From Lutraria lutraria (taxonomy: Eukaryota; Mollusca; Bivalvia; Venerida; Mactridae), in the NCBI GenBank assembly GCA_964023205.1, contig OZ026836.1:3789501-3853500 (forward strand): DNA of 64,000 nucleotides, read 5' to 3'. The notes beneath the pieces were generated by a model, which made no database searches, was not told the origin of the DNA, and saw only the letters and a program-made list of their open reading frames with translations. Below are positions 19,441-36,628 of the stretch, one piece after another. Positions within the stretch are counted from its first letter, which is position 1. The number at the start of each line of letters is the position of its first letter. Position numbers and translations under genes: made by a program.

Positions 19441-19692
19441 AGTAGTAATAGGCGGTACCCTGGTACCATGGTCATATAGAATATAGAGGGGGTTGGTACC
19501 AGAAGTAAACAAAAATTGGGACAAATTGGAAATCAATGTTGTACCCCAAAATAGTATGAATTGAATTTTCGGAATGTTCTGGTACCATTATTTTGTGTGT
19601 GTGTATAGACTTAGACAATGAGAGAATTTTCTTTCGAAAAGACATGGTGGCCCTGAAAAGGGCCGTTGGTGGTCCTGAAAAGGACCGTTGGT
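19441..19692. repeat. Left TIR of the Polinton (252 bp)
   Basis: Inverted match to 36367-36628. It includes two histone-type stem-loops and the downstream purine tract, so it doubles as the 3' end of the leftmost minus-strand gene. It lacks one copy of an 11-bp unit (GGGACAAATTG) that is doubled in the right TIR. Confidence 0.95.
19649..19686 (-). terminator. Tandem histone-type 3' stem-loops, left TIR
   Basis: On the minus strand two 16-nt hairpins follow the stop codon of the 157-aa gene: GGTCCTTTTCAGGACC (19686-19671), then GGCCCTTTTCAGGGCC (19664-19649). Each has a 6-bp stem, the UUUC loop, CCAAC before and ACC after, as in metazoan replication-dependent histone mRNAs. A purine-rich CGAAAGAAAA follows about 14 nt later, in the place of the U7 snRNA-binding downstream element. 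No AATAAA follows this gene. The first stem begins 13 nt after the stop. Confidence 0.75.
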
Positions 19693-19698
19693 GGTTTT

Positions 19699-20172
19699 TT
19701 AAACCGTGTTTGCTGACTGATCTGGTTGGGTACATAGTTCGCATTGGCAGTCTGGTGGGGGATAGCAGAGCCTGCATGTTGAATCCCCACAGGACCATTC
19801 CTGTTCTGGTACTGGTGGTTGTTCCGTGTACTCAACTTGAGCGGTAGTGATGATACGCCAATGCTCTTCTTCTTGTTGTTGTTCCCGTTGTCTATTCACC
19901 GTTCGTTCCCGAGCATCTCGCTGCCTTTCTCTGACTTGATCTCGAAATTGAGATAATTCTTCTCTATGATGAAATCGATTGGTTTCAATGGTATTCAAAG
20001 TCTCACCAATGAATTGAAGATCACGTTCCCTTTTTCTAACAATGCTAGCCGCTAAGCGACTGATTGAACGCCATACCCTGCTCTGTTTTTCAGTCAGTTG
20101 TTTTGCTGTTTTGAGTTCATTGAATAAAGCCTCCATCTTGAGTGTTTGAGTTCTCAGAATGAAATGAGGCAT
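19699..20172 (-). CDS. Leftmost Polinton gene: coiled-coil protein with Cys-rich tail (157 aa)
   Basis: Start chosen at the first ATG (20172-20170); the frame is open further upstream but only from a GTG. The central part is highly charged and helical (RERQRDARERTVNRQREQQQ), probably a coiled coil. The C-terminus holds CGDSTCRLC and CQCELC, a candidate metal-binding cysteine cluster. No family recognised. It reads outward into the left TIR and ends at the tandem histone-type stem-loops. Upstream lie three ATF/CREB-like sites (20229-20276). A regulatory or early role is possible but unproven. Codon and base use match the rest of the element. Confidence 0.65.
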   Translation of the reverse strand: MPHFILRTQTLKMEALFNELKTAKQLTEKQSRVWRSISRLAASIVRKRERDLQFIGETLNTIETNRFHHREELSQFRDQVRERQRDARERTVNRQREQQQEEEHWRIITTAQVEYTEQPPVPEQEWSCGDSTCRLCYPPPDCQCELCTQPDQSANTV

Positions 20173-20228
20173 TGTATTGTAAGACGGAGTATTTTTCTGT
20201 TGAAGCGCCGCCCACTCTCGTGGTTGGA

Positions 20229-20276
20229 TGACGTCATATCGCTTGGATGACGTCACCCTAGGGTTGGATGGCGTCA
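20229..20276 (-). promoter_or_regulatory. Triple ATF/CREB-like sites upstream of the 157-aa gene
   Basis: TGACGTCA at 20229-20236 and 20248-20255 and TGGCGTCA at 20269-20276, each preceded by TTGGA, at 19- and 21-bp spacing. TGACGTCA is the palindromic CRE bound by CREB/ATF proteins. They lie 57-107 bp upstream of the ATG of the 157-aa gene and just beyond the start of its longer GTG-led frame. Confidence 0.6.
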
Positions 20277-20363
20277 CGCGCCAATGTACCGCACAGACAT
20301 GTGCTTGATTTTTATGAACTTAGAAAAAAGATAACAGACACCTAGTTTCAGTTTTTCTAAACT

Positions 20364-20369
20364 TTTATT
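20364..20369 (-). terminator. Polyadenylation signal of the left minus-strand gene cluster
   Basis: AATAAA on the minus strand (TTTATT on plus), 44 nt after the protease stop codon. It is the ordinary 3' end for the 20.4-28.3 kb cluster, in contrast to the stem-loop ends of the outer genes. Confidence 0.7.
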
Positions 20370-20412
20370 TTTGTAACAAGAAAACAGTAACAACATGAAA
20401 CAGTAACATTGT

Positions 20413-21003
20413 TTAATGATCACCATAAAGAGTTGTATTTCTATGTGTGATACTATGATACAAACGGTTGTGACCTTCTGGTCTAGAGTTACGTTGAGCA
20501 CAACACTTTTGTCCACACTTGTTCACATATTGAGCATGCATGTAATAAGTACCATAATATTGTTGAAACCAATGCGTCACATAAGTGTCATTTTTTCCAT
20601 ACATGTCCGGTTTGAATCGGGTTAACAGTATCTGGTTCAAGTCACATTCACGTGAGATAAAATCCAAAGCGAATAGACAATACACACCACACACCGGTAA
20701 CATATCGCCTTGTATTCTCATGGCATTCCACAGATAAGTTTTGTTGGCATGTTTTTTCACAAAGGTTAGAATCTCTTCGAAAGGAGGTAATCCGTAGGAA
20801 TCAAAGTACACTGCTTTATTGTCTTTTAAATAAAGAGCCACCCAGTGTTCTCCACGTTGATTCCCGTTATGGGTATTCACAATATAGGCTTTCACGTCAT
20901 GCGGTTTCTCTGAAGGTAATTGATCTTTGGCACAAACACGAGCATGTAGTGGTTTTAATAACGGTGAATGATCTAATAGGTATTGTAGTTCATTCGTCTC
21001 CAT
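20413..21003 (-). CDS. PRO: Adenain-like cysteine protease (PRO, 196 aa)
   Basis: Maturation protease of the adenovirus endopeptidase (C5) family, expected to cleave capsid and core precursors inside particles. Counting from the ATG at 21003, the triad is seen as His53 (GEHWVALYL), Asp68 (AVYFDSYGLPP) and Cys105 (LPVCGVYC), with oxyanion-hole Gln98. All are intact. The frame is open back to a GTG at 21039, but the ATG at 21003 overlaps the upstream 154-aa gene by only 14 nt and starts just where adenain-type proteins do, so it is preferred. Length fits the family. It is the last gene of the left minus-strand cluster and is followed by AATAAA. Confidence 0.92.
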   Translation of the reverse strand: METNELQYLLDHSPLLKPLHARVCAKDQLPSEKPHDVKAYIVNTHNGNQRGEHWVALYLKDNKAVYFDSYGLPPFEEILTFVKKHANKTYLWNAMRIQGDMLPVCGVYCLFALDFISRECDLNQILLTRFKPDMYGKNDTYVTHWFQQYYGTYYMHAQYVNKCGQKCCAQRNSRPEGHNRLYHSITHRNTTLYGDH

Positions 21004-21454
21004 AATGCCAATTTCTGTTGACACGTTCAGCCCAAACACTGATCCATTGATCTATGAACTGATTCTGAGTGAGTTCTTCTTTAAATTGAATCCATAATCG
21101 ACACGCGTCTCCTTTTTCACTATCGGTCAAGGTCACTAATTCAGGATACCACTTTTCCATGACCTTGAACACGTCCAAACGTTGAATCGCTTTTTGAATG
21201 TAAAGTTCTGTCCACTCTTCCGTATTCGTGTATAAGCAGAGTACATGTTGTACTTGACTAGGATGATTCACTCGACAACCATAACAGTCTTTATGCACTT
21301 GATTATAAATTAAAGATTGGAGTGCTTCTGTGACGTGATGATTCAAGCACTCTTGTAAAAAGTCCGTCCTTGAACTTGTACAACAAGGATACGCCAATAA
21401 CTTCATTTCGTAATCTTGTCCTTTTTCCAGGTGTTCAATATCCATGTCTTCCAT
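20990..21454 (-). CDS. Polinton protein of unknown function (154 aa)
   Basis: ATG at 21454, stop overlapping the protease start by 14 nt. The protein is soluble, with scattered cysteines (YPCCTSS, CYGC, VLC) and a helical C-terminal half rich in Trp (WYPEL, WIQF, WISVWAERVNRNW). It begins 1 nt after the major capsid gene ends, so the two are likely to be expressed together. No family recognised; no membrane segment. Its position between capsid and protease suggests a virion or assembly role (inference). Confidence 0.65.
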   Translation of the reverse strand: MEDMDIEHLEKGQDYEMKLLAYPCCTSSRTDFLQECLNHHVTEALQSLIYNQVHKDCYGCRVNHPSQVQHVLCLYTNTEEWTELYIQKAIQRLDVFKVMEKWYPELVTLTDSEKGDACRLWIQFKEELTQNQFIDQWISVWAERVNRNWHYGDE

Positions 21455-21455
21455 C

Positions 21456-22754
21456 TTAATAATCTAGAAGCACTTCTCTGAATTGATTGATTTCAATTTG
21501 ATTGTCGTATTCCGCAAATACAATCACGTTGATGGCTTGTGCAAGTGCTGTTCCAAAGTGAAATTCCAATCTCAGATTGCCCGTTTTTATAGGATGGAGT
21601 TGACCTTCCTCGCAACCTTGATCTGCTGTCAAGTCCAACCCCCAGAGTGTGTATCCGTTCCGATAATCATTCATGCTCAATCCAAATGAACGATTGAGAC
21701 CAAGAGCTCCTGTCGCTTGATAGAGTGACATGTAGGATCTTAGAACTTCTCCCGTTTCAAAATTGGGTTGAAACGCTTTGTTATGAATACTTTTTCCGTC
21801 AATGCTGACTTCTAGATGATTCAGTGTAAAATGACGGAAATCAAAGGGGTTGGTAGCCATGTCTCCATTCATGTCTCCATTTCTTACCATACCGATGATA
21901 AGACGTTTTGGCAATTGACCTTGAAATAAATGATCTTCAATCTTGGATCGTTGACCGTTAGGAATCGTAAATGTTTTTACTTCAGTTCGTCGGATGGGGA
22001 TTTTCATGTTATGTTGAGCAATCTGTTGATTGAGTTGATTGGCTACCACTGGCAGTAAATCTACTGTTCTTACATTAAATCCTGCTTCTAGAAACTTGAT
22101 TTTAGCCGGTGCGGCACCCATGAGACAGAATTGAGGTGACGCTTTGTTTAGTCTTAAGCGTATTTCCATACCATTGGGTAAATATTTATCTTGCATCATC
22201 AGATCCAAATGAAGTCGTCCACATAGTTCCACCACACGACTTTGAAGGACACGAGCACGTCTCTCAATATAGCCCAGGTTACCCCCGTCATGTGCGTGGG
22301 TGTTCATATGACCAGGGGTGTCTTCACCCCATAACTCTAGCGCCTGAAGTTGAGTGTCTTTACAGCTTGAGGTGAAGGAGAGTAAATTTTCTATGTATGC
22401 CCGATAGGCATACGTGTCCGCATTGCTGGTGATCAGTTTATTATTCAGGTACACATCAATGCTTGAGAACATACTGTGAAAGAAATTGTTGACGGTAGCA
22501 ATTTCACTGTCGGCCGCTAGGTCTGTACCATCTGCCTGTATAATTTTTAGTTTTAGGTACAGGTAAGATTGATTCAGATCTGTCCATTTTTCTGTCTGTG
22601 CAGGAATCACAAATTCAATCGGAGCATTATTGTCCAGAGCAGAAATGGGATAATGCTCAGTCCATTGACCTTCTTGCATGGCTGTCATGGTAGGTGGCAC
22701 AACAGACACATCCAACTCTGTCTTACTACATTCACAGGAACCGTGTTGCATCAT
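21456..22754 (-). CDS. MCP: Major capsid protein (double jelly-roll, 432 aa)
   Basis: Predicted hexon-like major capsid protein of the Polinton/adintovirus type. It has the family layout: an N-terminal strand-rich region (PIEFVIPAQTEKWTDLN, SYLYLKLKI), a long central part with NNFFHSMFSSIDVYLNN, and a C-terminal half ending in strands (LRLEFHFGTALAQAINVIVF, then AEYDNQIEI). No signal peptide or membrane segment. The length fits animal Polinton capsids. The double jelly-roll fold is inferred from these family-typical motifs; a structure prediction would confirm it. It directly precedes the 154-aa gene and follows the pX-like core gene by 2 nt, in a capsid-protein block with the 280-aa minor capsid protein. 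The frame is uninterrupted. Confidence 0.85.
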   Translation of the reverse strand: MMQHGSCECSKTELDVSVVPPTMTAMQEGQWTEHYPISALDNNAPIEFVIPAQTEKWTDLNQSYLYLKLKIIQADGTDLAADSEIATVNNFFHSMFSSIDVYLNNKLITSNADTYAYRAYIENLLSFTSSCKDTQLQALELWGEDTPGHMNTHAHDGGNLGYIERRARVLQSRVVELCGRLHLDLMMQDKYLPNGMEIRLRLNKASPQFCLMGAAPAKIKFLEAGFNVRTVDLLPVVANQLNQQIAQHNMKIPIRRTEVKTFTIPNGQRSKIEDHLFQGQLPKRLIIGMVRNGDMNGDMATNPFDFRHFTLNHLEVSIDGKSIHNKAFQPNFETGEVLRSYMSLYQATGALGLNRSFGLSMNDYRNGYTLWGLDLTADQGCEEGQLHPIKTGNLRLEFHFGTALAQAINVIVFAEYDNQIEINQFREVLLDY

Positions 22755-22756
22755 GA

Positions 22757-23122
22757 TTAATCGAAAATATCAAGAGGTCTGGCCTGCTTAACTCGGCGAT
22801 GATGAAGTTTCGAATGAGGTCTTTTCTTGACTGGTTTGCTCTTTATACGTCTTTTAGGGCTGGCCACGGCATGTAGCAAGGATTCACCCACATCTTTTAA
22901 TACAGAGGCTCCACGTTTTCGTATTACTTGTTTAGCGTTTGATCCTGTCAAGATATCTTTGATAGCGGCTTTTCCTTGCTGGAGTCCTTCTTTTTTCAAG
23001 GTGCGAACTCCAGATTTCACAAATGGATTCAGTAAAGGTATAATTCTTTTCATGGCTTTCTTAAACATGGATCCAAGTCCGTGTCCATATTGTCGAGGTT
23101 GACCTTGGTAAGTAGGTATCAT
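22757..23122 (-). CDS. Basic pX/pVI-like core or minor virion protein (121 aa)
   Basis: Strongly basic (RRIKSKPVKKRPHSK, LHHRRVK) with an N-terminal Gly-rich start followed by an amphipathic stretch (GLGSMFKKAMKRIIPLL) like the small core or membrane-lytic proteins of adenovirus-type virions. A possible protease site is the small-residue run near its N-terminus (YGHGLG). It sits between the minor and major capsid genes, overlapping the former by 4 nt. Nucleic-acid binding or membrane disruption is inferred from composition only. Confidence 0.7.
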   Translation of the reverse strand: MIPTYQGQPRQYGHGLGSMFKKAMKRIIPLLNPFVKSGVRTLKKEGLQQGKAAIKDILTGSNAKQVIRKRGASVLKDVGESLLHAVASPKRRIKSKPVKKRPHSKLHHRRVKQARPLDIFD

Positions 23123-23961
23123 TGTCTTTGACGTAGGTGTAGTTTCACCATAGACTTCCCATGAATAAACTGAATAGACTGGCCAGTGTCACCCCTTATA
23201 TGGATAGTGATGGTGTCAAAGTCGGCTTTAGCCAGTGGTACATAGTGTAAATTCAAGAACTCGAAATGAATATGGGGGTTAGTTCCTGCTTTCGTTCTCG
23301 GATCAAATGGAGCTACACGTAAGATGGGGGCTTCTATGTTTCCCAAATAGGTATAAGCCGCGAGGTCAGAATAAACAAACAAATGATTATGACCCATGTT
23401 AATATCTACGCCATGAGGAAACGGATCTGGAGTGTCTTTTAAAAAGATGGTAGGAGAACTATCAGGGGCTCCACCCAGTTTAATAAACATGTGAGGATGA
23501 AACTGAATGCCTAGTTGATCCGAACTGTCCAGTTTTGCGCGTTTACTTTGTCCTGAAAAACCCATGGTAAATCGAAGGCCTTTCTGTCTAAATATTTTAC
23601 CCAGATTATCTTTTACGGTAAAGTCAATCGTCTCGATCAAATGTTGGGGTGTGACATAAGTTCCTACAGGAATACAAAGTCGTACACCTTTTTCTTCTTT
23701 ATTGGGGAGAGTGCAATAGGAAATTAAGGATTCAAAGGCCTTACCCAGGACAGGATCGTGTGTGACAATGCAGAAATGTCGCTCTTCTTCAGTGACATTA
23801 ATGACCTGACTAGGAACAATCATTTCCACTAAGGCAATTTCCCAGTCTTGTTTATTGAGATGGATGGGTTTTGTCAGTTTGGTACGAAAACAACATTGCG
23901 TATTGTCTGGGAATAAATCCATAGAGCTATCACTCATGAGTGTTATGTAAAACGAACTCAT
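23119..23961 (-). CDS. Minor capsid protein (penton-like, single jelly-roll, 280 aa)
   Basis: The N-terminus follows the pattern seen in Polinton and adintovirus pentons: FYITLMSDSSMDLFPDNT, then FRTKLTKPIHL, then WEIALVEMIVP. The rest is strand-rich, as expected for a vertex jelly-roll. Length of 250-300 residues is usual for the family. ATG at 23961, overlapping the end of the upstream 81-aa membrane-protein gene by 4 nt; its own end overlaps the pX-like gene by 4 nt. Intact. The role, vertex capsomer partnering the major capsid protein, comes from family knowledge. Confidence 0.82.
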   Translation of the reverse strand: MSSFYITLMSDSSMDLFPDNTQCCFRTKLTKPIHLNKQDWEIALVEMIVPSQVINVTEEERHFCIVTHDPVLGKAFESLISYCTLPNKEEKGVRLCIPVGTYVTPQHLIETIDFTVKDNLGKIFRQKGLRFTMGFSGQSKRAKLDSSDQLGIQFHPHMFIKLGGAPDSSPTIFLKDTPDPFPHGVDINMGHNHLFVYSDLAAYTYLGNIEAPILRVAPFDPRTKAGTNPHIHFEFLNLHYVPLAKADFDTITIHIRGDTGQSIQFIHGKSMVKLHLRQRQ

Positions 23962-24203
23962 GTTGATTTAGGTTTATTGAATTTCAAGGAGGGATTCGGT
24001 AGAATATAACCTAGAGAACTACTTAAAAGCAGAAGCCACAATTCTCGATCGGGTCGTTGAAAACACAAATTAAATAGCGATACGGTAATAATAATAAATA
24101 CCACTACAATTTGTGCAAAAAAAGTGACCTTATTTTTGGGTTCACACAATTTGGCTTGCTCTGAGGCAGTCACTACCACACTGGCCGTATCAGCTTGAGA
24201 CAT
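23958..24203 (-). CDS. Small double-spanning membrane protein (81 aa)
   Basis: First ATG at 24203; the open frame extends upstream only from a TTG. Two hydrophobic segments (TFFAQIVVVFIIITVSLFNL and LWLLLLSSSLGYIL) are joined by a short loop with basic and acidic residues, ending YILPNPSLKF. Small proteins with this ending are common in animal Polintons next to the minor capsid gene. It starts 21 nt inside the integrase coding end and overlaps the minor capsid start by 4 nt. A virion or host-membrane role is inferred. Confidence 0.7.
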   Translation of the reverse strand: MSQADTASVVVTASEQAKLCEPKNKVTFFAQIVVVFIIITVSLFNLCFQRPDRELWLLLLSSSLGYILPNPSLKFNKPKST

Positions 24204-24223
24204 GATGTATTTATTAACAAACT

Positions 24224-25297
24224 TCAAACGAGATGGGATTCGGGAATCCAACTGTCAAATTTCGAAGGATAGCCTTTCCAATGCACTTTAATTTCTCGTC
24301 TTCCGTCTACCTTACTCTGGCGATGGGCGAGCACTGATTCAATTTCATAGATAGCATCATCTTTTATAACCTGTACTTCAGAGAAATAAAACGAACCCAG
24401 TATGGGTTCTCCGTCTAAATCAGTCAATTTCACAGTAGCAGGAGAGGTCTTTTTGACTTGGATCACTTTAAACAGTTCAGTGGTCCAGTTGGGTAGATAA
24501 CCTTTATCAAATGTACGTTTTGTTTTATTGATACGAACAATATCTCCCACATGAAGGGTCGTCGACGCTTTCTTTCTTGATTTTCCATACAAGGTCAAGG
24601 CCACTTGAGATTCGTTATTCTCATTTACGGATACGGGTGCCATTTGTATACTACGATGAACACGATGATTATAGGCATGCACGAGATCAGGCAATACCTG
24701 AATATACCTTCGTGTTTTATGATGCGTAAAGTATTTCCACATGCGTGATTTTAAGGTCCGTTGAAAACGTTCCACTATACTAGCCTTCGTTTCTGGGTTT
24801 TCAGTCGTAAAATAATGAATCCCTACTTTGTCTAAAAACTGTTGAAACCTTTGATTCTTGAATTCTGTTCCTTTATCGGTTTGCAACGCTTTAGGTTGTC
24901 TCGTTTTAAGAATAGAGCGAAACGCTTCCACCAATGTGAGCCCCGTTTTATCCTTGAGGGGAACGACCCAAGCATATTTTGAAAACACGTCAATGACACA
25001 CAACAAATATCGATAAGGGGTGTTGTACTGAGCCAAGGATTGCATGTCTGCCAAATCAGCTTGCCATTGATGATCAATACCACCCACAATCGTTTTCCGT
25101 CTCGAGAATACCCTACGGATAGGTTTGTGCAGGGTATAGGTCTTTTGTCCCTTCAACCAGGATCGCACTTGACTTGGTGTAATGGATTTCAGTTGAGTTC
25201 GAGCTGCTGTAGTAAGACGTTCTACCCCACCAAAACCAGCCGGATGATGGGGATCATAATAAATCTGATGTAACAGACTGTCTACCTTTTTGTTCAT
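24224..25297 (-). CDS. INT: Retroviral-type integrase with chromodomain (INT, 357 aa)
   Basis: RVE-family integrase expected to cut and join the element ends, giving the 6-bp duplication seen. Counted from ATG 25297, the core D,D34E triad is Asp81 (QADLADM), Asp141 (QTDKGTEF) and Glu176 (ASIVERFQR). An SH3-like domain follows (HVGDIVRINKTK), then a C-terminal chromodomain of about 42 residues (YEIESVLAHR, VHWKGYPSKFDSWIPE), which in this family can direct insertion to modified histones. The frame is open upstream to a GTG at 25318, but the ATG at 25297 avoids overlap with the 249-aa gene. All catalytic residues are present. Confidence 0.95.
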   Translation of the reverse strand: MNKKVDSLLHQIYYDPHHPAGFGGVERLTTAARTQLKSITPSQVRSWLKGQKTYTLHKPIRRVFSRRKTIVGGIDHQWQADLADMQSLAQYNTPYRYLLCVIDVFSKYAWVVPLKDKTGLTLVEAFRSILKTRQPKALQTDKGTEFKNQRFQQFLDKVGIHYFTTENPETKASIVERFQRTLKSRMWKYFTHHKTRRYIQVLPDLVHAYNHRVHRSIQMAPVSVNENNESQVALTLYGKSRKKASTTLHVGDIVRINKTKRTFDKGYLPNWTTELFKVIQVKKTSPATVKLTDLDGEPILGSFYFSEVQVIKDDAIYEIESVLAHRQSKVDGRREIKVHWKGYPSKFDSWIPESHLV

Positions 25298-25302
25298 GTT
25301 GT

Positions 25303-26052: not shown

Positions 26053-26420
26053 AGCTTTTTCACCAGTGTGGCAACACCTCCACTGAGTGCTCCTGCAGCA
26101 ACAGCTTTAGCAATGATTGGAGCAAGAGCCAGTAATGGAAATAATCCTCCTTTTTGATTCAACACACGTTTCTTTTTTTGAATGGATACTCTTTTATCTG
26201 CTAAAGTGCGGAGATGTTGACGCTTGGACTTCAACCTTTGCTTTTGAGAGGGGGATAAGGCAACATTGCCTTTTAAAACATTCTGACAGCATTCTGACAC
26301 ACATTGAATCATTTCTTTAGATGCTCCATGTATCATCTTTCTTCTTAACCCATCTGGGGCTTGAGTTAAACCCAAAACCAGATGTCCGTATTTATGCAGG
26401 AGTGGTCTCTTTGGTGCCAT
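26049..26420 (-). CDS. Small basic virion-type protein (123 aa), paralogue of the 375-aa core protein
   Basis: A helical, basic N-part (LKGNVALSPSQKQRLKSKR, then KRVSIQKKKRVLNQKGG) is followed by a hydrophobic C-terminus (LFPLLALAPIIAKAVAAGAL). The order of features matches the first 95 residues of the adjacent 375-aa protein (SGLKEM / GASKEM; ILKKKIVLPKQTQ / VLKGNVALSPSQK; a Gly-rich turn followed by hydrophobics), so the two look like an old tandem duplication. A TATA box lies 36-43 nt upstream (26456-26463). Likely a minor virion protein; function inferred only from composition and context. Confidence 0.7.
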   Translation of the reverse strand: MAPKRPLLHKYGHLVLGLTQAPDGLRRKMIHGASKEMIQCVSECCQNVLKGNVALSPSQKQRLKSKRQHLRTLADKRVSIQKKKRVLNQKGGLFPLLALAPIIAKAVAAGALSGGVATLVKKL

Positions 26421-26455
26421 TATGTCAAATAATACCTGTTTTTACTTCTTTACAG

Positions 26456-27620: not shown

Positions 27621-27629
27621 TTATATATA
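27621..27629 (-). promoter_or_regulatory. TATA box of the 375-aa core gene
   Basis: TATATATAA on the minus strand, 35-43 nt upstream of the ATG at 27586, overlapping the end of the ATPase gene. Confidence 0.5.
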
Positions 27630-28268
27630 CACAACTGGCCCACGTTTTTCTCCAGTGATCCAGTGATGAAAAATATCTGTTCTTAACCGATAACTGTCTG
27701 GTGTTTGAGGGTGAAAGTCAATCACTAAATACCCATGAGGTGTAGAGATAGCATCTTGATAAGCGGGTAACAAGTGTGGCAATTGAATTTGATTCGCCAA
27801 CACTTTGATTTGTCCTTTATCTCTTGTGTTTTGAAATAAGATCATGTAATGTGCATTTAAACTCAGGGTACGACTGGCTTTCGATTGTTGAAACATGTTT
27901 TGTGTAATGTAGATCACACTAGCATTACGATGGTGACCTTTTCGTGTAAACCATAATTTGATTTTCTCTTCATCTTTATCACCAAGCATGTCATCAAATA
28001 TAATTAAATGAGGAATGGATGTATCCTCTACTATCTCTTCATCCTCGTCAGGTATCCCCTGTATGAACCGAATACTAGGTTCTTGTTCTTGTAATTGTGC
28101 ATAGGCTACTTGCCATTCTTTGTAACACCATACAATACGCTCAGGTACTACTTGAAACAAATCTGATTTGTATTCCAACACCTTTTTTACGAATTGTGTT
28201 TTACCAGAGCCACTAGGGCCTGCGATAAACATATTGCAAGGATGCTTAAAAAGTAAACTGGACTCCAT
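27621..28268 (-). CDS. ATP: Genome-packaging ATPase (A32/FtsK-HerA type, 215 aa)
   Basis: Walker A GPSGSGKT at residues 17-24 and Walker B HLIIFDDM at about 87-94, followed by a sensor-like stretch (ASVIYITQNMF), all intact. This is the packaging ATPase shared by Polintons, virophages and large DNA viruses, which pumps genome into capsids (family knowledge). ATG at 28268. It is the first gene of the 20.4-28.3 kb cluster; the preceding cluster's AATAAA signals lie 40-50 bp upstream. Length is usual for the family. Confidence 0.93.
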   Translation of the reverse strand: MESSLLFKHPCNMFIAGPSGSGKTQFVKKVLEYKSDLFQVVPERIVWCYKEWQVAYAQLQEQEPSIRFIQGIPDEDEEIVEDTSIPHLIIFDDMLGDKDEEKIKLWFTRKGHHRNASVIYITQNMFQQSKASRTLSLNAHYMILFQNTRDKGQIKVLANQIQLPHLLPAYQDAISTPHGYLVIDFHPQTPDSYRLRTDIFHHWITGEKRGPVVYI

Positions 28269-29627: not shown

Positions 29628-29644
29628 TACCTAAAAGGTCAAGG

Positions 29645-32600
29645 TCAGTCATGTAGATAACCATAAGGCACAGTCATATGATTCTCGACCACAATACGTT
29701 TGGTATACACCGAACGAAATGTTTTGACTTGTTTCTCACTGGTCACGGTTCTGTCCTTATGACGTTTAATCCGAGAAGCATATTCAACTACGGTCGAATA
29801 ATGATGTCTGTCTTTCACACAATCCACCATCGTATTGAAATTCACTTGTTGAGTGGCATTGTAGTCTAACGTAATGCCTTTCACTTTGCATTTTTGATGG
29901 AGTTCACCGTTTTCAATGTATTCATAGCCATAGTTCTTTGGACCTAAAGCGACATATCTCACAATACGACCCTTTGGTACCTCATCTGTCCATTTTCCCA
30001 ATCGACTGGAGATAATAGGAACATTATAGCCATCAGGGTCATGAATGTACATACAACTGTCTGTGTCAAAATACAGTACTCTCTTTCCTAGAGGTTCAAG
30101 CACTTTGTACAGTTCTAATCGAGCATAAGCCGTCACAAATGAAGCCACCACAGGATTGGCTGATGAATGAGGGTCTGCTTTGTCCGATTCATCAGTGTAA
30201 TTCATTAACACGAATTCATCATGATCAAAACACTCTGCATATTTCACAGACTTTTTAGGATCGTTCAGTATTCCGTAGAACTGGTCCAATCGATGAACAT
30301 ACTCTGTTTTAGGCAAGAGGTTAGTTTGAGCATTTTTACCCCAGAGACAATTCAGCATGGTTTTGGCAAAAGCTCGTTTTCCTGGATTTTTCTCCACCTG
30401 TTGCAAACGAATTCCTTCTGCTTCAAAATAATCTTGTTTAAATTTATCTTGAGCCTCTTCCGTATCCACCCCTGGAGGATATCCACTAGCCTCTTGTTTC
30501 ATTTTCAAGTATTTGTCAATGTATTGCCGATAGACGTCCGTACTCCATTCATCCCAGTGCCATACATGATACACTTTTGATACTTGATAGCCTAAAGCAA
30601 TAGCTTTAGCCAATTCAACATGAGTCCATGTGCCATACAAGAATCGTTCATACGGGGAATGTGTACAATAATCCATCTCCTTCTCAGCACAGGTACGGCA
30701 TAGCGTAAACACCATTTTACTATTACAGTGTATGGGTAAGACAGGCATCCATAAATCTTGCGGGGGTAGAACACGGCATTTAATCAGTCCTTTGTATTTC
30801 TCAATATGCTGTTGATCAATTTGTTCTTGACTCATGATCACTGGATGACCTATCGGATAAGCCCTGTACTTGTTCACATACGGATAGAGAGAACAAATAT
30901 CCACATATTTGATTTCTTGATCGTTGTCTACTTCATGATACAGTCGGACGGCATTCGTACGACCTCCGAACAAAGCTTCCCTGGGTTGTATCGGTTCTTG
31001 ACCATGATAGAATCGTTCCACTCTTGTCTTATAGGTAGGATCCTTTTGACAACGCTGATCAAATTCACATTCCCACATGACCACAACAGGGTACCCCTGT
31101 TCTTTCAAAGACTCCAGTCGTTTATACGTATCGTGATAGGCCTGTTGCATGCTTCTCAAAGTATACGGATTGATGGTACTTCGGTTAGGAAAACAGGTGG
31201 GGCACCCATGATACCAACATCCCATGAATTCATACACGGTGTTGGTCTCTTGACAATAGCCATCCACGTAATAAGGTCCAATTTTGACTTCGCCTTTGTT
31301 ATTCAAGGCATGTCGAATATGTATCTCTTCGGTGACAGCCATCATTTGTAGCCAACGTATGCCTTTCATGGAATACCGGGTTTTATTGGGATACCCGGCA
31401 TCCGAAATCACGGCTAAACTATGAGGTGGCATGGAATTTTTGCGCCAGGCTTTGTTACACACTTGAGCTAATGTGGTAGCTTCAGTAAATGGATCTATTT
31501 GATCACTTTCCAATAATTGTTGACGAAATTCTCCACACCCGCGTCTTAAAATGTCCACATCCGATTGACAGTATTTCTCCATTTCCTTTTGAAAATCAAA
31601 TACGTCACCTTTTCTTTCATTGTACCAGGTTAAAAACTCTTCACGTCGCTCTGGTTTCATACTATCCGGTTTGTAAAAGTGTAGCGGTAAATAAGGTCCC
31701 ACATAATCTTGATACGCCAAGGTGTTTGCATAGAATGGAAACCATCCTTTGGCTAACTCGGTCAGTCCAAATGTATTGGGAAAATAGGAGAGAGGCATAC
31801 TCAGGAAACTGAGGGAGTCAATCATGCGTATTCCATGCACTCTCAATTGAATGATTTTACTACCATTCATAATCAACTGGGGTTTCGCCGTCCCCTGAGT
31901 AACCACATATCTAAGAATAAACTGAGCGTCATAGCCTTGAGCATTGTGGGCTATCACTGTCGATCCTCGATGGGTAGGGAGGAATAGCCAAGTACAGAAT
32001 TGTTGTAACGTATTTTCACCACGGAATGTCATTTGTCTGGCTTCATTCACCTCTTCACAATACTCACATGGAGTTTTCACTGACTTACACATACAGTCAC
32101 CACAAGCACGTTGAGCCACACAAAAATTAGGGATATGTTCTCCAGAATCAAAACGACATTCAAAATCAAAAAAGATGAATGGTACTTCTGGTTGTTTTCT
32201 ATTGGGTGGTTCATACGTTGGAATGTAACAGTCATGATCTGGTCCTACTATGGCTTTACAACACCTACATTTCTTTGTCCCTGGGCAAACGTGACTCCGT
32301 TTCGTTTCAATCACCTTTTGTCCACATTTCTTACAATTCCATACGGATTCACAAATGGTTTTACGTTGTTTTCCCGTTTTTGTTTTATGATTGTCAAAAC
32401 ATGCCTGACTCTGGAATAGGCGACGGCAATCCGGACATCTTATAGATTGTCCTGCTGGGCACAGGGTGTGAGCATAACACTGACAAATATGGCTACACTG
32501 GTGTCCTTCACGGTGATCATAACCGACATCACACCATTCACAATAATAACTCCGCCCGAGAAATCCGGTAATGGATACAATACAGTCATAATGATTATCA

Positions 32601-33436
32601 TGGTGAAAGATATGAATCACACGACTTTTTTCAGTCATAGCGGGTGGTTTGAATAACAATTCACTTCCATAATGTTGTGGATGGATTTTAATCACATAGC
32701 TGGGATAGATATAGTCCTGTAGTTTTTGGTATTCTTCTATACCACACGACTGATCCGATGAAATACCCACTTGCTTTAATAATGCTTCAGCTTCGTATTT
32801 TTGAAGATTTTTCTTAGACTGACGTATAAGACCCCATCGTTTTTTCCATTCCGGGGTTTGATTTTCATCCACTTTGCACCGTCCTACCACAATCGATCTA
32901 GCTAAACACATAGAGTCCTTACTATTGTCAATACACACAACACTTGTCTTTGACTTCCGCATACTGGATAAGTTTGGTGCTTTAAACGTTTTCTTTCCGG
33001 ATCCCTGTGGCATAGCAATATGCGTAATTTCCATCTGTGCCGCCCCATCATGAATTTTAAATTGACGGTTACTCTGTGCCACACGTTCAATTTCATCCAA
33101 TAATGTATCTCCACTAATACGAGATGCCCTATTAAACGGAACATGTATTCCAAAGTCCAAATCAGGATGTAGAATAGATACTCGAACTCGATCATTTGAT
33201 CTCACTTCACATCTCTTGTAGAGTTGATCCATCATATCATTAAACAACCTGTTTGTAAATTCAAACGATTGATTATACGGCTGAAATGTCACATCATATA
33301 CTTTGGATTGAGTCTTGAATTTTCTTGACTTTCTTTCCATGCGTGACTGTATGTCATAATAGTCGCGCACAGGCTCAACCTTACTTCGTTTAGTTGGAGG
33401 TTCATCCTCACCACTAGTACTGTCGGTATCTGACAT
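29645..33436 (-). CDS. POLB: Protein-primed DNA polymerase B (POLB, 1263 aa)
   Basis: Replicates the element by protein priming. Counted from ATG 33436: a zinc-binding region with many Cys/His pairs at about 299-404 (CEWC, CPDC, CKKC, CRCC); exonuclease motifs FFDFE (about 422-426), HNAQGYD (about 497-503) and YCQSDVD (about 622-628); polymerase motif A DICSLYP (about 846-852), B KTMLNCLWG (about 1025-1033) and C YFDTDS (about 1122-1127). All catalytic acids are present and the frame is unbroken. The frame is open to 33502 (GTG) with another ATG at 33490, but a TATA box at 33464-33472 places the start of transcription just before 33436, so that ATG is chosen. It opens an acidic, then basic tail (SGEDEPPTKRSK) that may be a nuclear signal. 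Confidence 0.97.
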   Translation of the reverse strand: MSDTDSTSGEDEPPTKRSKVEPVRDYYDIQSRMERKSRKFKTQSKVYDVTFQPYNQSFEFTNRLFNDMMDQLYKRCEVRSNDRVRVSILHPDLDFGIHVPFNRASRISGDTLLDEIERVAQSNRQFKIHDGAAQMEITHIAMPQGSGKKTFKAPNLSSMRKSKTSVVCIDNSKDSMCLARSIVVGRCKVDENQTPEWKKRWGLIRQSKKNLQKYEAEALLKQVGISSDQSCGIEEYQKLQDYIYPSYVIKIHPQHYGSELLFKPPAMTEKSRVIHIFHHDNHYDCIVSITGFLGRSYYCEWCDVGYDHREGHQCSHICQCYAHTLCPAGQSIRCPDCRRLFQSQACFDNHKTKTGKQRKTICESVWNCKKCGQKVIETKRSHVCPGTKKCRCCKAIVGPDHDCYIPTYEPPNRKQPEVPFIFFDFECRFDSGEHIPNFCVAQRACGDCMCKSVKTPCEYCEEVNEARQMTFRGENTLQQFCTWLFLPTHRGSTVIAHNAQGYDAQFILRYVVTQGTAKPQLIMNGSKIIQLRVHGIRMIDSLSFLSMPLSYFPNTFGLTELAKGWFPFYANTLAYQDYVGPYLPLHFYKPDSMKPERREEFLTWYNERKGDVFDFQKEMEKYCQSDVDILRRGCGEFRQQLLESDQIDPFTEATTLAQVCNKAWRKNSMPPHSLAVISDAGYPNKTRYSMKGIRWLQMMAVTEEIHIRHALNNKGEVKIGPYYVDGYCQETNTVYEFMGCWYHGCPTCFPNRSTINPYTLRSMQQAYHDTYKRLESLKEQGYPVVVMWECEFDQRCQKDPTYKTRVERFYHGQEPIQPREALFGGRTNAVRLYHEVDNDQEIKYVDICSLYPYVNKYRAYPIGHPVIMSQEQIDQQHIEKYKGLIKCRVLPPQDLWMPVLPIHCNSKMVFTLCRTCAEKEMDYCTHSPYERFLYGTWTHVELAKAIALGYQVSKVYHVWHWDEWSTDVYRQYIDKYLKMKQEASGYPPGVDTEEAQDKFKQDYFEAEGIRLQQVEKNPGKRAFAKTMLNCLWGKNAQTNLLPKTEYVHRLDQFYGILNDPKKSVKYAECFDHDEFVLMNYTDESDKADPHSSANPVVASFVTAYARLELYKVLEPLGKRVLYFDTDSCMYIHDPDGYNVPIISSRLGKWTDEVPKGRIVRYVALGPKNYGYEYIENGELHQKCKVKGITLDYNATQQVNFNTMVDCVKDRHHYSTVVEYASRIKRHKDRTVTSEKQVKTFRSVYTKRIVVENHMTVPYGYLHD

Positions 33437-33463
33437 GATTATGATCTTAAAACTTCTCCGCCG

Positions 33464-33472
33464 TTTTTTATA
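33464..33472 (-). promoter_or_regulatory. TATA box of the polymerase gene
   Basis: TATAAAAAA on the minus strand, 28-36 nt upstream of the ATG at 33436, followed by CGGCGGAG. It decides the polymerase start codon. Confidence 0.6.
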
Positions 33473-33504
33473 GTTCGGGTTCAAGGTCATAACGCGTGAC
33501 ACTC

Positions 33505-33512
33505 TATAAAAG
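33505..33512 (+). promoter_or_regulatory. TATA box of the zinc-knuckle gene
   Basis: TATAAAAG on the plus strand, 34-41 nt before the ATG at 33546. With the minus-strand box at 33464-33472 it forms a compact divergent promoter; a TCAAGGTCA site lies between them (33481-33489). Confidence 0.65.
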
Positions 33513-33545
33513 ACGTACGCTCCGTCCGTTTTTTATCATTTCAAC

Positions 33546-33896
33546 ATGAGCGATCCTAAAATGAACCAAGTTGAAGAGAACCGAGATCAAACTTTGATGT
33601 ATTCATTAAAGAAGAAAATTAAAGAGCTTAACAACTTAGCGGATCAGCTCTGTGGACAGAAAAATGTAACATGGGATCATATCAAGTGTTATCGTTGTGG
33701 AAAGAAAGGACATTATTCTACAAGCTGTACGGAACCCTTCAACAATGAATGCTTTTATTGTCATGAACAAGGACATTTCATCGCAGACTGTCCTAAGAAA
33801 CAAGGTGAACAGGTCGATCTACAGGACGCAGAACAGAGTAAGAAAAAACGTAAATACAAAAAGAATCCAACAAAAACTGTGAGTGACTTTGTGTAA
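33546..33896 (+). CDS. Nucleocapsid-like protein with two CCHC zinc knuckles (116 aa)
   Basis: Two perfect C-x2-C-x4-H-x4-C knuckles: CYRCGKKGHYSTSC (residues 49-62) and CFYCHEQGHFIADC (about 70-83), the type in retroviral nucleocapsid and cellular single-strand nucleic-acid-binding proteins. The N-terminus is a short charged helix, the C-terminus Lys-rich (KKKRKYKKNPTK). It is divergent to the polymerase from a shared promoter and ends at AATAAA (34001). Binding of single-stranded DNA or RNA during replication or packaging is inferred. It could have been captured from a host CNBP-like gene or a retroelement. Confidence 0.85.
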   Translation: MSDPKMNQVEENRDQTLMYSLKKKIKELNNLADQLCGQKNVTWDHIKCYRCGKKGHYSTSCTEPFNNECFYCHEQGHFIADCPKKQGEQVDLQDAEQSKKKRKYKKNPTKTVSDFV

Positions 33897-34000
33897 TCCA
33901 GACAATGTGTTGGACAATGTGTTGGACAATTGTGTATAAATTGGAGACTAAGTGAGTTGTATTGTGTTGTACTTTGTTGTACTTTATAAATGTTTTCAAA

Positions 34001-34006
34001 AATAAA
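34001..34006 (+). terminator. Polyadenylation signal of the zinc-knuckle gene
   Basis: AATAAA 105 nt after the stop codon, followed by a TG-rich stretch (ATATGCTTTTGTCTTTG). This is the only plus-strand gene of the element with an ordinary polyadenylation signal. Confidence 0.65.
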
Positions 34007-34071
34007 ATGATAGACAATGTAATATGCTTTTGTCTTTGCTTGAGATATAAAACGAATCTAACACATATGGT

Positions 34072-34087
34072 GGCCCTAATAAGGGCC
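34072..34087 (-). terminator. Histone-type 3' stem-loop of the 74-aa gene
   Basis: Minus-strand GGCCCTTATTAGGGCC, 10 nt after the stop codon, preceded by CCAAC and followed by ACC, as in the other copies. The 6-bp stem is perfect; the loop is UAUU rather than UUUC. A purine-rich CAAGCAAAGACAAAAGC follows about 30 nt later. Confidence 0.6.
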
Positions 34088-34097
34088 GTTGGGTAAT

Positions 34098-34322
34098 TCA
34101 TTGCATTTCTGCAAGAAATAGGTATCGCCAATAGTTGGCTCTCAAATCCTCATCATAAAAGATGGCAAGGTCAGGGTATAAATTACCCATCTTGATATCC
34201 ATCTTCACTTCTACACATGCATCTTGGAATTCAGACAAGTCTGGGTACAAATTGCCCATCTTGACCACCCAAACATCTTCTTGTTCAGGTTCATCAGAAG
34301 AACTTTTCAAGCAGTTGCCCAT
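34098..34322 (-). CDS. N-acylated protein with two LYPDL late-domain motifs (74 aa)
   Basis: Starts MGNCLKSSS: Gly2 is a myristoylation site, Cys4 a palmitoylation site and Ser at position 7 fits the N-myristoyltransferase consensus, so membrane attachment is likely. Two repeats follow, KMGNLYPDLSEF and KMGNLYPDLAIF. LYPDL fits the LYPxL motif that binds ALIX and recruits ESCRT-III for budding in retroviruses and other viruses (family knowledge). The protein is small, acidic and without a membrane segment. It is divergent to the 107-aa gene across a CCAAT array and ends at a histone-type stem-loop. A matrix-like egress factor is the inference. Confidence 0.7.
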   Translation of the reverse strand: MGNCLKSSSDEPEQEDVWVVKMGNLYPDLSEFQDACVEVKMDIKMGNLYPDLAIFYDEDLRANYWRYLFLAEMQ

Positions 34323-34382
34323 GTTGAATCATGAAACATAAATGAGCTATGGAACATGAGAAAAACACTGACCTAGAACAGA

Positions 34383-34459
34383 CCAATGAAATGCCAGTAA
34401 AATAGACCAATGAAATACCGTTAAAATGGACCAATGAAATACTGTTAAAATGGACCAAT
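34383..34459. promoter_or_regulatory. Four CCAAT boxes at exact 24-bp spacing, divergent promoter
   Basis: GACCAATGAAAT at 34381, 34405 and 34429, then GACCAATCAGAG at 34453: CCAAT starts at 34383, 34407, 34431 and 34455. Each matches an NF-Y site. The array lies between the divergent 74-aa and 107-aa genes, both ending at histone-type stem-loops. No clear TATA box is seen for either gene. Confidence 0.7.
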
Positions 34460-34523
34460 CAGAGTCCTTGTATCATATGAGAGCCAGTGACCTTACCTTG
34501 ATCTAATTTCATTCTGTATCAAG

Positions 34524-34847
34524 ATGTCGCAACGCACGCTTAACATTATTAAGAGAAAGTATACAACCTTAGGGTTGTATATTGAACAACTGGAGATGCA
34601 GTTAGAAGAGTTGAGGTTGGAGGTGAAGACCCTAAGAGAGGGGAAACAGTTCGCGGAGGAGGTTGTGGTCAGCTCTGGGGAAGAGGACTGGGGGGATACC
34701 CCTCAAGAATCAACCCCAGAGAACTGGGAAGATGAACTGGTAGAGGTTCCGTCGAACCTCTACCAACCTACACCGGACCCGAAGGATGTCCAGAAATGGG
34801 ACAAGTGGTGTCCTGCTTGTATGGGGAGATGCGGTCAACGCCATTAA
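34524..34847 (+). CDS. Coiled-coil acidic protein with Cys/His tail (107 aa)
   Basis: ATG at 34524. Residues about 15-45 form a coiled coil (LYIEQLEMQLEELRLEVKTL); the centre is acidic (VVSSGEEDWGD, ENWEDEL); the C-terminus is WDKWCPACMGRCGQRH, a possible zinc-binding tail recalling the Cys-rich end of the 157-aa protein. No family recognised. It is followed 20 nt downstream by tandem histone-type stem-loops and is transcribed from the CCAAT-array promoter. A 13-bp inverted repeat spans its stop codon. Plausibly a regulatory dimer; unproven. Confidence 0.65.
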   Translation: MSQRTLNIIKRKYTTLGLYIEQLEMQLEELRLEVKTLREGKQFAEEVVVSSGEEDWGDTPQESTPENWEDELVEVPSNLYQPTPDPKDVQKWDKWCPACMGRCGQRH

Positions 34848-34860
34848 TCCCCATACAAGC
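34815..34860 (+). repeat. 13-bp inverted repeat spanning the stop codon
   Basis: GCTTGTATGGGGA (34815-34827) and its perfect complement TCCCCATACAAGC (34848-34860), with a 20-nt loop that contains the end of the 107-aa gene. It lies 7 bp before the histone-type stem-loops and would form a strong hairpin in the mRNA. Confidence 0.7.
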
Positions 34861-34866
34861 ACCAAC

Positions 34867-34904
34867 GGTCCTTTTCAGGACCACCAACGGCCCTTTTCAG
34901 GGCC
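34867..34904 (+). terminator. Tandem histone-type 3' stem-loops of the 107-aa gene
   Basis: GGTCCTTTTCAGGACC (34867-34882) and GGCCCTTTTCAGGGCC (34889-34904), each preceded by CCAAC. CAGAAAGAAT (34918-34927) follows 14 nt after the second stem, at the expected place and with the expected purine composition of a U7-binding element. No AATAAA follows in the next 150 bp. Confidence 0.75.
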
Positions 34905-35150
34905 CCCCATACAATTCAGAAAGAATCACTCTCATATTGTCAATATTACTAGTATATTTACATTCCTATCTGATAACACCAAATACAAATAGACGGTGTG
35001 AGGTAAGTTAAACATTTCCTACACATATAAGTGATAGTATGATGTGTACAATCATTTTCAACAAATATAAGTGCTGTGATTGTACAAAGTATTTCCCCCA
35101 CAAATATAAGTGTTAGTATGTGATGTACAATCATTTTCAACAAATGTCTG

Positions 35151-35417
35151 CAAATTGCTGTGATAGTATAATGTGTACAGTGTTCAAATTGCTGTGATAG
35201 TATAATGTGTACAGTATTCAAATTGCTGTGATAGTATTAAGTGTACAGTCTGCAAAGTGCTGTGATAGTATTAAGTGTACAGTCTGCAAAGTGCTGTGAT
35301 AGTATAATGTGTACAGTGTTCAAAGTGCTGTGATAGTATAATGTGTACAGTCTGCAAAGTGCTGTGATAGTATTAAGTGTACAGTATTCAAATTGCTGTG
35401 ATTGTATAATGTGTACA
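35151..35417. repeat. 34-bp direct repeats, 8 copies
   Basis: Units starting CAAATTGCTGTGATAGTATA and ending in GTGTACAG plus four variable bases repeat at exactly 34 bp from 35151; the eighth is partial. Diverged copies reach back to about 35025. It lies between the 107-aa and 241-aa genes, upstream of the 241-aa promoter. Function unknown; an enhancer or a replication/packaging site are options. Confidence 0.85.
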
Positions 35418-35577
35418 AAGCATATCTACAATATAACCTTGACCTTGACGTGTCAAACACTTGTTAAAAAAACTTGAAGTGTCACACTTGTAAAAACTTG
35501 AAGTGTCACACGTATTCAAAAAAACTTCTCACAATTGACCTTGACCTAATAGAACACTGGCGCGTGCAGGCAAAAAG

Positions 35578-35585
35578 TATAAATA
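35578..35585 (+). promoter_or_regulatory. TATA box of the 241-aa gene
   Basis: TATAAATA, 36-43 nt before the ATG at 35621. TCAAGGTCA sites (minus orientation) lie upstream at 35440-35448 and 35536-35544. Confidence 0.7.
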
Positions 35586-35620
35586 CCCCCGGCGCAGACA
35601 CTATTTTTTCATTATCTAGC

Positions 35621-36346
35621 ATGGAGTCCTTCAACATGCCATACGATATATTGAGAGAAGCACTAGAATCATCTGAGTTGATAGACCCGAATGCGGGTAT
35701 GCATTACAACCAGCCGAAGTACAACCAGCCAAAGTACGGTCAACTACAGTATAGGCAGCCACAGTACAGCCAATACAGTCAACCACTGTACAGCCAATAC
35801 AGTCAACAGTCCATGGTAGATGTACAGCCTATGGTAGATGTACAGCCGATACAACCCATGGTAGATGTACAACCCACTATGACGAATACACAACCCATGG
35901 TAGATGTACAACCCACTATGACGAATACACAGCCTATACAACCTATGACGAATACACAGCCTATGGTAGATGTACAACCCACTATGACGAATACACAGCC
36001 CTCTATGGCGAATACACAGCTTATGACGGATAAACAGTCTAATACAATTACAAAGCCTACAACGGGATTGTCTGTTCTACAAGGTATCAAGGAAGAAATG
36101 GTACAGATGAATCAAGTCATGCAAGAGATGGTCAGACTCATGAAAAATCAAGAAGTACGGTTTAAGCCACAAGAAATGATTGTACCTGTACAGTTTATGT
36201 ATGATTCAAAGAAACGAAAACATGAGCATGAGAAAAAGAAACCGGAGCATGACAAAAAGAAACCGGAGATGACAGAAACGAAGAAACGAAAACATGATCT
36301 TGAGAAACAACCTCGGGGCAAGTATGGTAAAGAAATAAAGAAATGA
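35621..36346 (+). CDS. Low-complexity Gln/Tyr-rich repeat protein with coiled coil and basic tail (241 aa)
   Basis: ATG at 35621 is set by the TATA box; the longer frame from 35474 begins with TTG upstream of that box. Residues about 30-70 are a Tyr/Gln-rich, prion-like tract (YNQPKYNQPKYGQ, YSQYSQPLYSQYSQ). Next come tandem repeats of PMVDVQPTMTNTQ, coded by in-frame DNA repeats (35815-36030). A short coiled coil (IKEEMVQMNQVMQEMVRLM) and a very basic tail with KKRKHEHEKKK follow, a likely nuclear signal. It reads into the right TIR and ends at its stem-loops. It may phase-separate or bind nucleic acid (inference). Confidence 0.7.
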   Translation: MESFNMPYDILREALESSELIDPNAGMHYNQPKYNQPKYGQLQYRQPQYSQYSQPLYSQYSQQSMVDVQPMVDVQPIQPMVDVQPTMTNTQPMVDVQPTMTNTQPIQPMTNTQPMVDVQPTMTNTQPSMANTQLMTDKQSNTITKPTTGLSVLQGIKEEMVQMNQVMQEMVRLMKNQEVRFKPQEMIVPVQFMYDSKKRKHEHEKKKPEHDKKKPEMTETKKRKHDLEKQPRGKYGKEIKK

Positions 36347-36366
36347 AGATCCGACTAACAGTCACA

Positions 36367-36628
36367 ACCAACGGTCCTTTTCAGGACCACCAACGGCCCT
36401 TTTCAGGGCCACCATGTCTTTTCGAAAGAAAATTCTCTCATTGTCTAAGTCTATACACACACACAAAATAATGGTACCAGAACATTCCGAAAATTCAATT
36501 CATACTATTTTGGGGTACAACATTGATTTCCAATTTGTCCCAATTTGTCCCAATTTTTGTTTACTTCTGGTACCAACCCCCTCTATATTCTATATGACCA
36601 TGGTACCAGGGTACCGCCTATTACTACT
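36367..36628. repeat. Right TIR of the Polinton (262 bp)
   Basis: Inverted match to 19441-19692. It differs chiefly by an extra 11-bp copy of CAATTTGTCCC near 36534-36550. It carries the stem-loops that end the 241-aa gene. Confidence 0.95.
36373..36410 (+). terminator. Tandem histone-type 3' stem-loops, right TIR
   Basis: GGTCCTTTTCAGGACC (36373-36388) and GGCCCTTTTCAGGGCC (36395-36410), 26 nt after the stop of the 241-aa gene; flanks CCAAC and ACCAT, then CGAAAGAAAA near 36423. Mirror image of the left TIR set. Confidence 0.75.

Follow-up and report, generated by a model that had tools for sequence, protein, structure and literature searches.

Histone-type stem-loops as candidate 3'-end signals of four accessory genes in a bivalve Polinton

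Polinton/Maverick elements and adintoviruses are recognized by a DNA polymerase B (PolB), a chromodomain integrase, an A32-type ATPase, a protease and a capsid protein, together with terminal inverted repeats (TIRs) beginning AG and 6-bp target-site duplications. The second system relevant here is the 3' end of replication-dependent histone mRNAs, in whose processing the U7 small nuclear ribonucleoprotein (snRNP) has a role. Portions of PMC2781718 describe binding of SLBP to the histone stem-loop, removal of a purine-rich downstream element and a single endonucleolytic cut between the two; they also state that, as of 2009, Slbp had never been implicated outside histone genes, and the stem-loop is called unique to histone mRNAs both there and in portions of PMC12775136. 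Here we analyze an intact-looking Polinton of 17,188 bp from the bivalve Lutraria lutraria. It occupies positions 19441-36628 of a 64,000-nucleotide stretch of contig OZ026836.1 (positions 3,789,501 to 3,853,500 of the forward strand, C5:3789501-3853500 of the 728.5-Mb assembly), which is referred to as the window. Four of its accessory genes, g157, g74, g107 and g241, appear quite likely to have, as their 3' end, the SLBP/U7-type element of replication-dependent histone mRNAs and to yield non-polyadenylated transcripts. That a known 3'-end signal is found on a new class of genes is well supported at the level of sequence.

The element resembles Polinton/Maverick elements and adintoviruses in its PolB, chromodomain integrase, A32-type ATPase, weak protease match and a capsid protein assigned by its relatives, and also in its 6-bp target duplication and a TIR beginning AG. 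It differs from them in the histone-type 3' ends of the four accessory genes. A first-pass annotation of the window, made from the letters, knew of no earlier report of such ends in Polintons or adintoviruses, and open-licence PMC text (most subscription papers fall outside it) agrees: among the matches listed, none described 3' ends of histone type in a Polinton or another virus, none joined the histone stem-loop to polinton, and none joined SLBP to a non-histone mRNA. Two surveys of such viruses (PMC11071296, PMC11071308) use neither "stem-loop" nor "polyadenylat-" in their main text, the portion covered. The four genes are as follows.

19699..20172, minus strand: g157, accessory, product coiled-coil-like with a Cys-rich C terminus (by eye); open reading frame (ORF), no Pfam match up to E 0.1
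34098..34322, minus strand: g74, accessory; ORF, no Pfam match above cut-off
34524..34847, plus strand: g107, accessory; ORF, two database homologs
35621..36346, plus strand: g241, accessory, repeat-rich; ORF, no Pfam match up to E 0.1

Seven hairpins were located downstream of these genes, each in the sense strand and at most 60 nt from a stop codon.

19649..19664, minus strand: histone-type stem-loop, second of the doublet at the g157 3' end; 35.8 bits with the Rfam model RF00032
19671..19686, minus strand: histone-type stem-loop, first of the doublet at the g157 3' end; letters equal to those of the host H1 stem-loop
34072..34087, minus strand: histone-type stem-loop, single, at the g74 3' end; GGCCCTTATTAGGGCC, loop UAUU; RF00032 31.0 bits, under the gathering score
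34867..34882, plus strand: histone-type stem-loop, first of the doublet at the g107 3' end; pattern match after the stop
34889..34904, plus strand: histone-type stem-loop, second of the doublet at the g107 3' end; RF00032 34.0 bits
36373..36388, plus strand: histone-type stem-loop, first of the doublet at the g241 3' end, in the right TIR; pattern match after the stop
36395..36410, plus strand: histone-type stem-loop, second of the doublet at the g241 3' end, in the right TIR; RF00032 35.8 bits

These are the coordinates and strands given by the first-pass annotation, which had placed the hairpins just after four of 20 genes, and the ORF table likewise holds 20. The first hairpin begins 12 nt past the stop codon in g157, 10 nt in g74, 19 nt in g107 and 26 nt in g241. 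As had been proposed, six hairpins read GGTCCTTTTCAGGACC or GGCCCTTTTCAGGGCC, while the seventh (34087-34072, minus strand) reads GGCCCTTATTAGGGCC. CCAAC precedes all seven; ACC follows six of them, and the flank claimed for all six common hairpins fails at 34889-34904, which is followed by CCC. All four genes have a 6-bp stem with a GG...CC base, a U-N-U-N loop and A/C-rich flanks; the likeness to the histone 3' element extends to AAC before the hairpin, mostly ACC after it, and a position close to the stop codon. A strict hairpin pattern was matched seven times in the 17-kb element and never in 300 dinucleotide shuffles of the element, with a maximum of one match per shuffle among 60 shuffles of the whole window. 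Relaxing the pattern raised the count to eight, the additional match being within the capsid gene, where shuffles averaged 0.03 matches. These shuffle counts rule out a chance origin of the hairpins.

The doublets at g157 and g241 belong to the element ends, which are delimited by the following features.

19435..19440, no strand: left target-site duplication ACTGTA, 6 bp; same 6-mer on both element flanks
19441..19695, no strand: left TIR; inverted-repeat arm whose inner end is the hairpin doublet
36364..36628, no strand: right TIR; inverted-repeat arm
36629..36634, no strand: right target-site duplication ACTGTA, 6 bp; same 6-mer on both element flanks

Both TIRs start AGTAGTAATAGG and are alike except for one 10-bp length difference; the doublet forms their inner end, and further inward the match between them ends within a few bases. 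The 19649/19671 pair and the 36373/36395 pair represent the two copies of one TIR and the region of the 34867/34889 doublet is 81% like them, so at most two or three independent hairpin origins can be counted. Treating the seven as separate cases, as had been done at first, was an overstatement.

The host provides a direct comparison, which the first-pass annotation had called for. A tandem histone cluster (PF00125) is present on C6, and we compared the element with the five genes of one unit (L052), which encodes H3, H4, H2B, H2A and H1. Each has a single RF00032 hairpin 28-31 nt after its stop codon, scoring 30.5-34.5 bits, while the window hairpins score 31.0-35.8 bits, with up to 41.6 bits in another copy of the element. 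The gathering score of this model (Histone3) is 34; two window sites are on the gathering list, and the first hairpin of each doublet receives no separate report. The 31.0-bit window site lies under the gathering score, as do four of the five host histone genes. With scores on a par, this model ranks the element sites level with the histone genes of their host. None is at background, and the proposed identity with the histone mRNA 3' element holds up. The host H1 hairpin is GGTCCTTTTCAGGACC, identical to the type 1 hairpin of the element (the first of each doublet), and the hairpin of the core histones H3, H4, H2A and H2B is GGCCCTTTTTAGGGCC, from which type 2 differs by one loop base. AATAAA was found within 300 nt in none of the five host genes, and H2A has one ATTAAA, upstream of its hairpin. 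By eye, flanks differ between the element and host hairpins, which rules out recent copying of an entire histone 3' flank from the host. What sets the element apart from the histone system is that its hairpins follow viral accessory genes, not histones (the products of g157, g74, g107 and g241 have no histone Pfam match), and that they form tandem doublets at g157, g107 and g241.

Purine tracts resembling a U7-binding element were found at three of the four genes.

19618..19636, minus strand: purine tract CGAAAGAAAATT with CTCTCAT, candidate U7-binding region after the g157 hairpins; GAAAGA from 14 nt past the hairpin
34917..34935, plus strand: purine tract CAGAAAGAAT with CTCTCAT after g107; GAAAGA pattern, conserved block in copies
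36423..36441, plus strand: purine tract CGAAAGAAAA with CTCTCAT after g241; GAAAGA pattern

GAAAGA begins 14-15 nt past the last hairpin of g157, g107 and g241, close to the spacing first noted, and is a further, partial likeness to the histone 3' element; g74 (hairpin at 34072) has no such tract and departs from both the histone element and the earlier description. When 6864 stretches of 22 nt were sampled from the element, 2.8% had a tract of the GAAAGA type. The motif CTCTCAT lies 25-30 nt past the hairpin in two of the five host histone genes, H4 and H1, and in viral g157, g107 and g241; it occurs nowhere else in the 7.2-kb histone unit and once elsewhere in the element. Among hairpins of genomic copies, grouped by a rough rule, 29 of 36 terminal ones, 13 of 17 at g107 and two of 10 left unsorted are followed by the motif, which is absent from all 17 g74 sites. 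Because the motif was noticed after the fact, it is only suggestive.

As the first-pass annotation had stated, no AATAAA follows these genes: neither AATAAA nor ATTAAA was found within 300 nt past g157, g74, g107 or g241 in the window. Two genes of the same element served as controls.

20413..21003, minus strand: protease gene, adenain-like by a weak match (PF00770, E 0.043); AATAAA 44 nt downstream, no hairpin
33546..33896, plus strand: zinc-knuckle (CCHC) gene (PF00098, 3.9e-8); AATAAA at 34001, no hairpin

A whole-genome search with RF00032, in which 75 of 131,090 candidates were scored, gave at least 44 matches at E <=1e-3, a lower bound; the window sites and the C6 histones are not among the 44 listed. 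Five of these lie at C12:22.877-22.915 Mb, four of them inside stretches of a tandem array described below. The other 39 fall in 37 places, each of which is a Polinton end, carrying either g157 (20) or right-end genes (17). In these copies together with the window, a hairpin is present after g107 in 18 of 18 and after g74 in 17 of 18 (the exception, L044, has a single stem mismatch), and the hairpins of these two genes are not the matches that brought the loci in. For g241 the count is 18 of 18, and for g157 it is 16 of 21 by script; the other five g157 copies also have a hairpin, after an earlier in-frame stop in four and after a frameshift in L048. The control genes show the reverse, with a hairpin in 0 of 17 copies and AATAAA in 17 of 17 for the zinc-knuckle gene, and a hairpin in 0 of 21 and AATAAA in 20 of 21 for the protease gene. 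Of four right ends guessed at about 17 kb for more divergent copies, three (L053-L055) showed no tblastn match to any of seven element proteins. The fourth (L056), without an RF00032 match of its own, has three hairpins, which follow g107 and g241, and no g74 was found in it. Hairpin blocks are more conserved than the next 60 nt at g74 (0.997 against 0.970), g107 (0.962 against 0.872), g157 (0.924 against 0.882) and g241 (0.947 against 0.832). Histone-type 3' ends are consistent with the placement and sense strand of the hairpins, with their persistence in copies, with a purine tract at three genes of the four and with the contrast to neighbors that bear AATAAA.

A scan of prokaryote genome contigs recovered three Polinton pieces in metagenome-assembled genomes (MAGs). 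One of them, L002 (contig CALIZB010000033.1, 504-842), is labelled as a Bacteroidia MAG and has PolB, integrase and capsid genes; PolB and integrase were named by eye from ORFs and alignment, and the capsid protein is 29% identical to that of the window. It carries one hairpin with an RF00032 score of 35.8 bits, 28 nt past the stop codon of an 89-aa C2H2 zinc-finger ORF, followed by AAAAAAGAGA from 13 nt past the hairpin (counted on the printed sequence). Position just after a stop codon, score and trailing purine tract are shared with the window element, from which L002 differs in bearing its hairpin on a C2H2 gene, in having a single hairpin and in the loop UAUC. By Pfam this gene has no resemblance to g157, g74, g107 or g241. 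L002, a single locus, is the best sign that histone-type 3' ends may predate the window family. The other two pieces (L001, L003) gave no RF00032 match up to E 0.05, which says little because both are incomplete. In IMG/VR no relatives were found by capsid sequence, capsid alignment, integrase alignment or stem-loop pattern; the lone match to the looser pattern (L014, IMGVR_UViG_3300049032_000028) is in a phage coding region and was taken as chance.

We suggest that the viral genes with a hairpin are probably processed by the histone machinery of the host and tied in this way to cell division. Host SLBP would bind the hairpin and U7 snRNP would pair with the purine tract; a few nucleotides past the hairpin or, in a doublet, past the second one, the histone cleavage complex would make its cut. 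The resulting mRNA would lack a poly(A) tail and could accumulate during S phase, or else in other cells rich in SLBP, for example oocytes. Like histone mRNAs, these viral mRNAs may be translated and degraded with S phase, or they may be stored in SLBP-rich germ cells. The TIR would supply one 3'-end module to both outward-facing terminal genes and would also stop transcription near the element border; since the doublet lies at the inner end of the TIR, one repeated module could end both terminal genes before transcription leaves the element. Genes of the element would then fall into two 3'-end classes, marked by a hairpin or by AATAAA.

Several observations weigh against histone-type processing of these genes. 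The absence of AATAAA over 300 nt is weak evidence alone. The examined host histone unit has single hairpins and no doublets, the purine pattern is found in only one of its five genes (H2A), and the g74 site combines a missing purine tract with the loop UAUU. Counts for g157 and g241 are biased because the ends were chosen by RF00032 via their terminal hairpins. The copies are mostly young, with right-end PolB pieces mostly 91-97% identical, so descent accounts for much of the conservation. At g107 the stretch from stop codon to hairpin (0.968) is as conserved as the hairpins (0.962), and one copy (L046) has lost its second g107 hairpin. The compensated stem changes that had been taken to show selection are seen at the third stem pair, where the variants C-G, U-A and U-G among 14 distinct rows all keep pairing; this is one of six stem pairs, and as proof it was overstated. 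Of 500 shuffles, five reached the covariation score, but 422 reached the count of covarying pairs, which is thus not above the control.

Two further points on this side concern poly(A) signals: AATAAA or ATTAAA lies 142-191 nt downstream of the called stop in four of 21 g157 copies, and AATAAA is found about 70 nt past the hairpin of L002. These would fit mixed use, in which dividing or germ cells would process the transcripts in the SLBP manner while transcription elsewhere would read through to downstream poly(A) sites, leaving mRNAs with a hairpin followed by a tail. There is a precedent in flies, where, according to portions of PMC2781718, histone pre-mRNAs in Slbp mutants switch to cryptic poly(A) sites. 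Against it, no AATAAA or ATTAAA was found within 300 nt past g74, g107 or g241 in 18 copies each. We regard mixed use as possible yet rather doubtful; it is compatible with, and overlaps, processing by the histone machinery.

Another possibility is that the hairpins are DNA-level elements of the TIR, such as protein-binding, replication or recombination sites, and follow genes only as a by-product of the compact layout. Four of the seven hairpins do lie inside TIRs and the internal doublet is 81% like them, as noted above, yet those of g74 and g107 are found some 1.7-2.6 kb into the element, in sense and downstream of stop codons. The letters also follow the histone RNA element: the loop agrees, as do the CCAAC/ACC flanks and, for three genes of the four, the purine tract; type 1 is that of host H1, and the distant Polinton L002 has its hairpin after an unrelated gene. 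We consider a purely DNA-level role very improbable. Marginally less credible still is that the element captured the hairpins from histone 3' ends of the host and carries them along without a function, its genes using cryptic poly(A) sites. Identity of type 1 with the host H1 hairpin would be explained in this way, whereas by eye no host flank is carried beyond a few bases, copies retain the hairpin and purine tract better than the 60 nt that follow, the C-G, U-A and U-G variants preserve the pair, and a second, distant Polinton has the hairpin on another gene. Hairpins with 6-bp G+C-rich stems 3' of genes can stabilize or terminate RNA generally, and such a role without SLBP is the least plausible explanation of all, as it would not fix the histone-specific letters seen at four of four genes or the spaced purine tract at three of four.

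Processing of g157, g74, g107 and g241 by the histone machinery, if true, would break the rule that the histone stem-loop is unique to histone mRNAs. It would offer a mobile element a route to couple chosen genes to host DNA replication and to dodge poly(A)-based control, and it would provide a natural test of what the stem-loop alone suffices for. A cellular counterpart would be a bivalve gene array encoding a 109-aa protein.

This roughly 1.5-kb tandem array, present in two stretches (L012, C12:22875000-22884500; L013, C12:22910500-22919500), has a 109-aa ORF with no Pfam family above cut-off. The two stretches show 12 hairpins with RF00032 scores of 28.4-31.0 bits, all under the gathering score; the aligned copy has a C-A stem mismatch, and CAAGAAAA, CAAGGAAA or CACGAAAA follows downstream. 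Relatives of the 109-aa protein occur in Mya arenaria and Pinctada imbricata, and no convincing homology to seven element proteins was found. If real, the array would be a case of a histone-type 3' end on a cellular gene other than a histone gene. Extending these findings, we lean slightly towards a broader picture, in which Polintons of marine animals would have a second, S-phase- or SLBP-dependent 3'-end class for accessory genes, which would have been acquired or arisen anew on more than one occasion and be furnished by the TIR at the ends, and the SLBP regulon of bivalves would reach beyond histones to viral genes and a conserved tandem-array gene.

The remaining core genes of the element are listed below.

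21456..22754, minus strand: major capsid protein gene, 432 aa; named relatives listed as F54H12.2-like
24224..25297, minus strand: integrase with chromodomain; PF00665 3.2e-12, PF00385 1.3e-7
27621..28268, minus strand: A32-like ATPase; PF04665 2.4e-8
29645..33490, minus strand: DNA polymerase B; PF03175 3.3e-38

We take the product of 21456..22754 to be the capsid protein by way of its relatives, of which there are 384 at E <=1e-3, including Mercenaria, Saccostrea, Ostrea and Crassostrea among the matches listed. The ATPase presumably has a packaging role. PolB, a retroviral-type integrase and the ATPase, along with TIRs and a 6-bp target duplication, are the Polinton features seen here. LxCxE-type motifs were found in none of 11 proteins tested.

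The divergent genes g74 and g107 are separated by a stretch with a repeated short motif.

34383..34459, plus strand: four CCAAT boxes with 24-nt spacing between g74 and g107; about 0.5 per 200 bp expected from the window average

These boxes would be compatible with cell-cycle promoters, though this is a guess. At the other end of g107 (window 34816-34916), CTTGTATGGGG lies near the end of the gene, its complement CCCCATACAAG just past the stop codon, and CCCCATACAA again past the second hairpin; with such complements flanking the g107 hairpins, a longer alternative pairing is possible. Upstream of g241, tandem repeats of a CTGTGATAGTATAATGTGTACAGT-like unit occupy window positions 35034-35420. 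Just outside the element, at window positions 37261-37972, there is an inverted repeat with arms of 166 nt that are 93% complementary and 380 nt apart.

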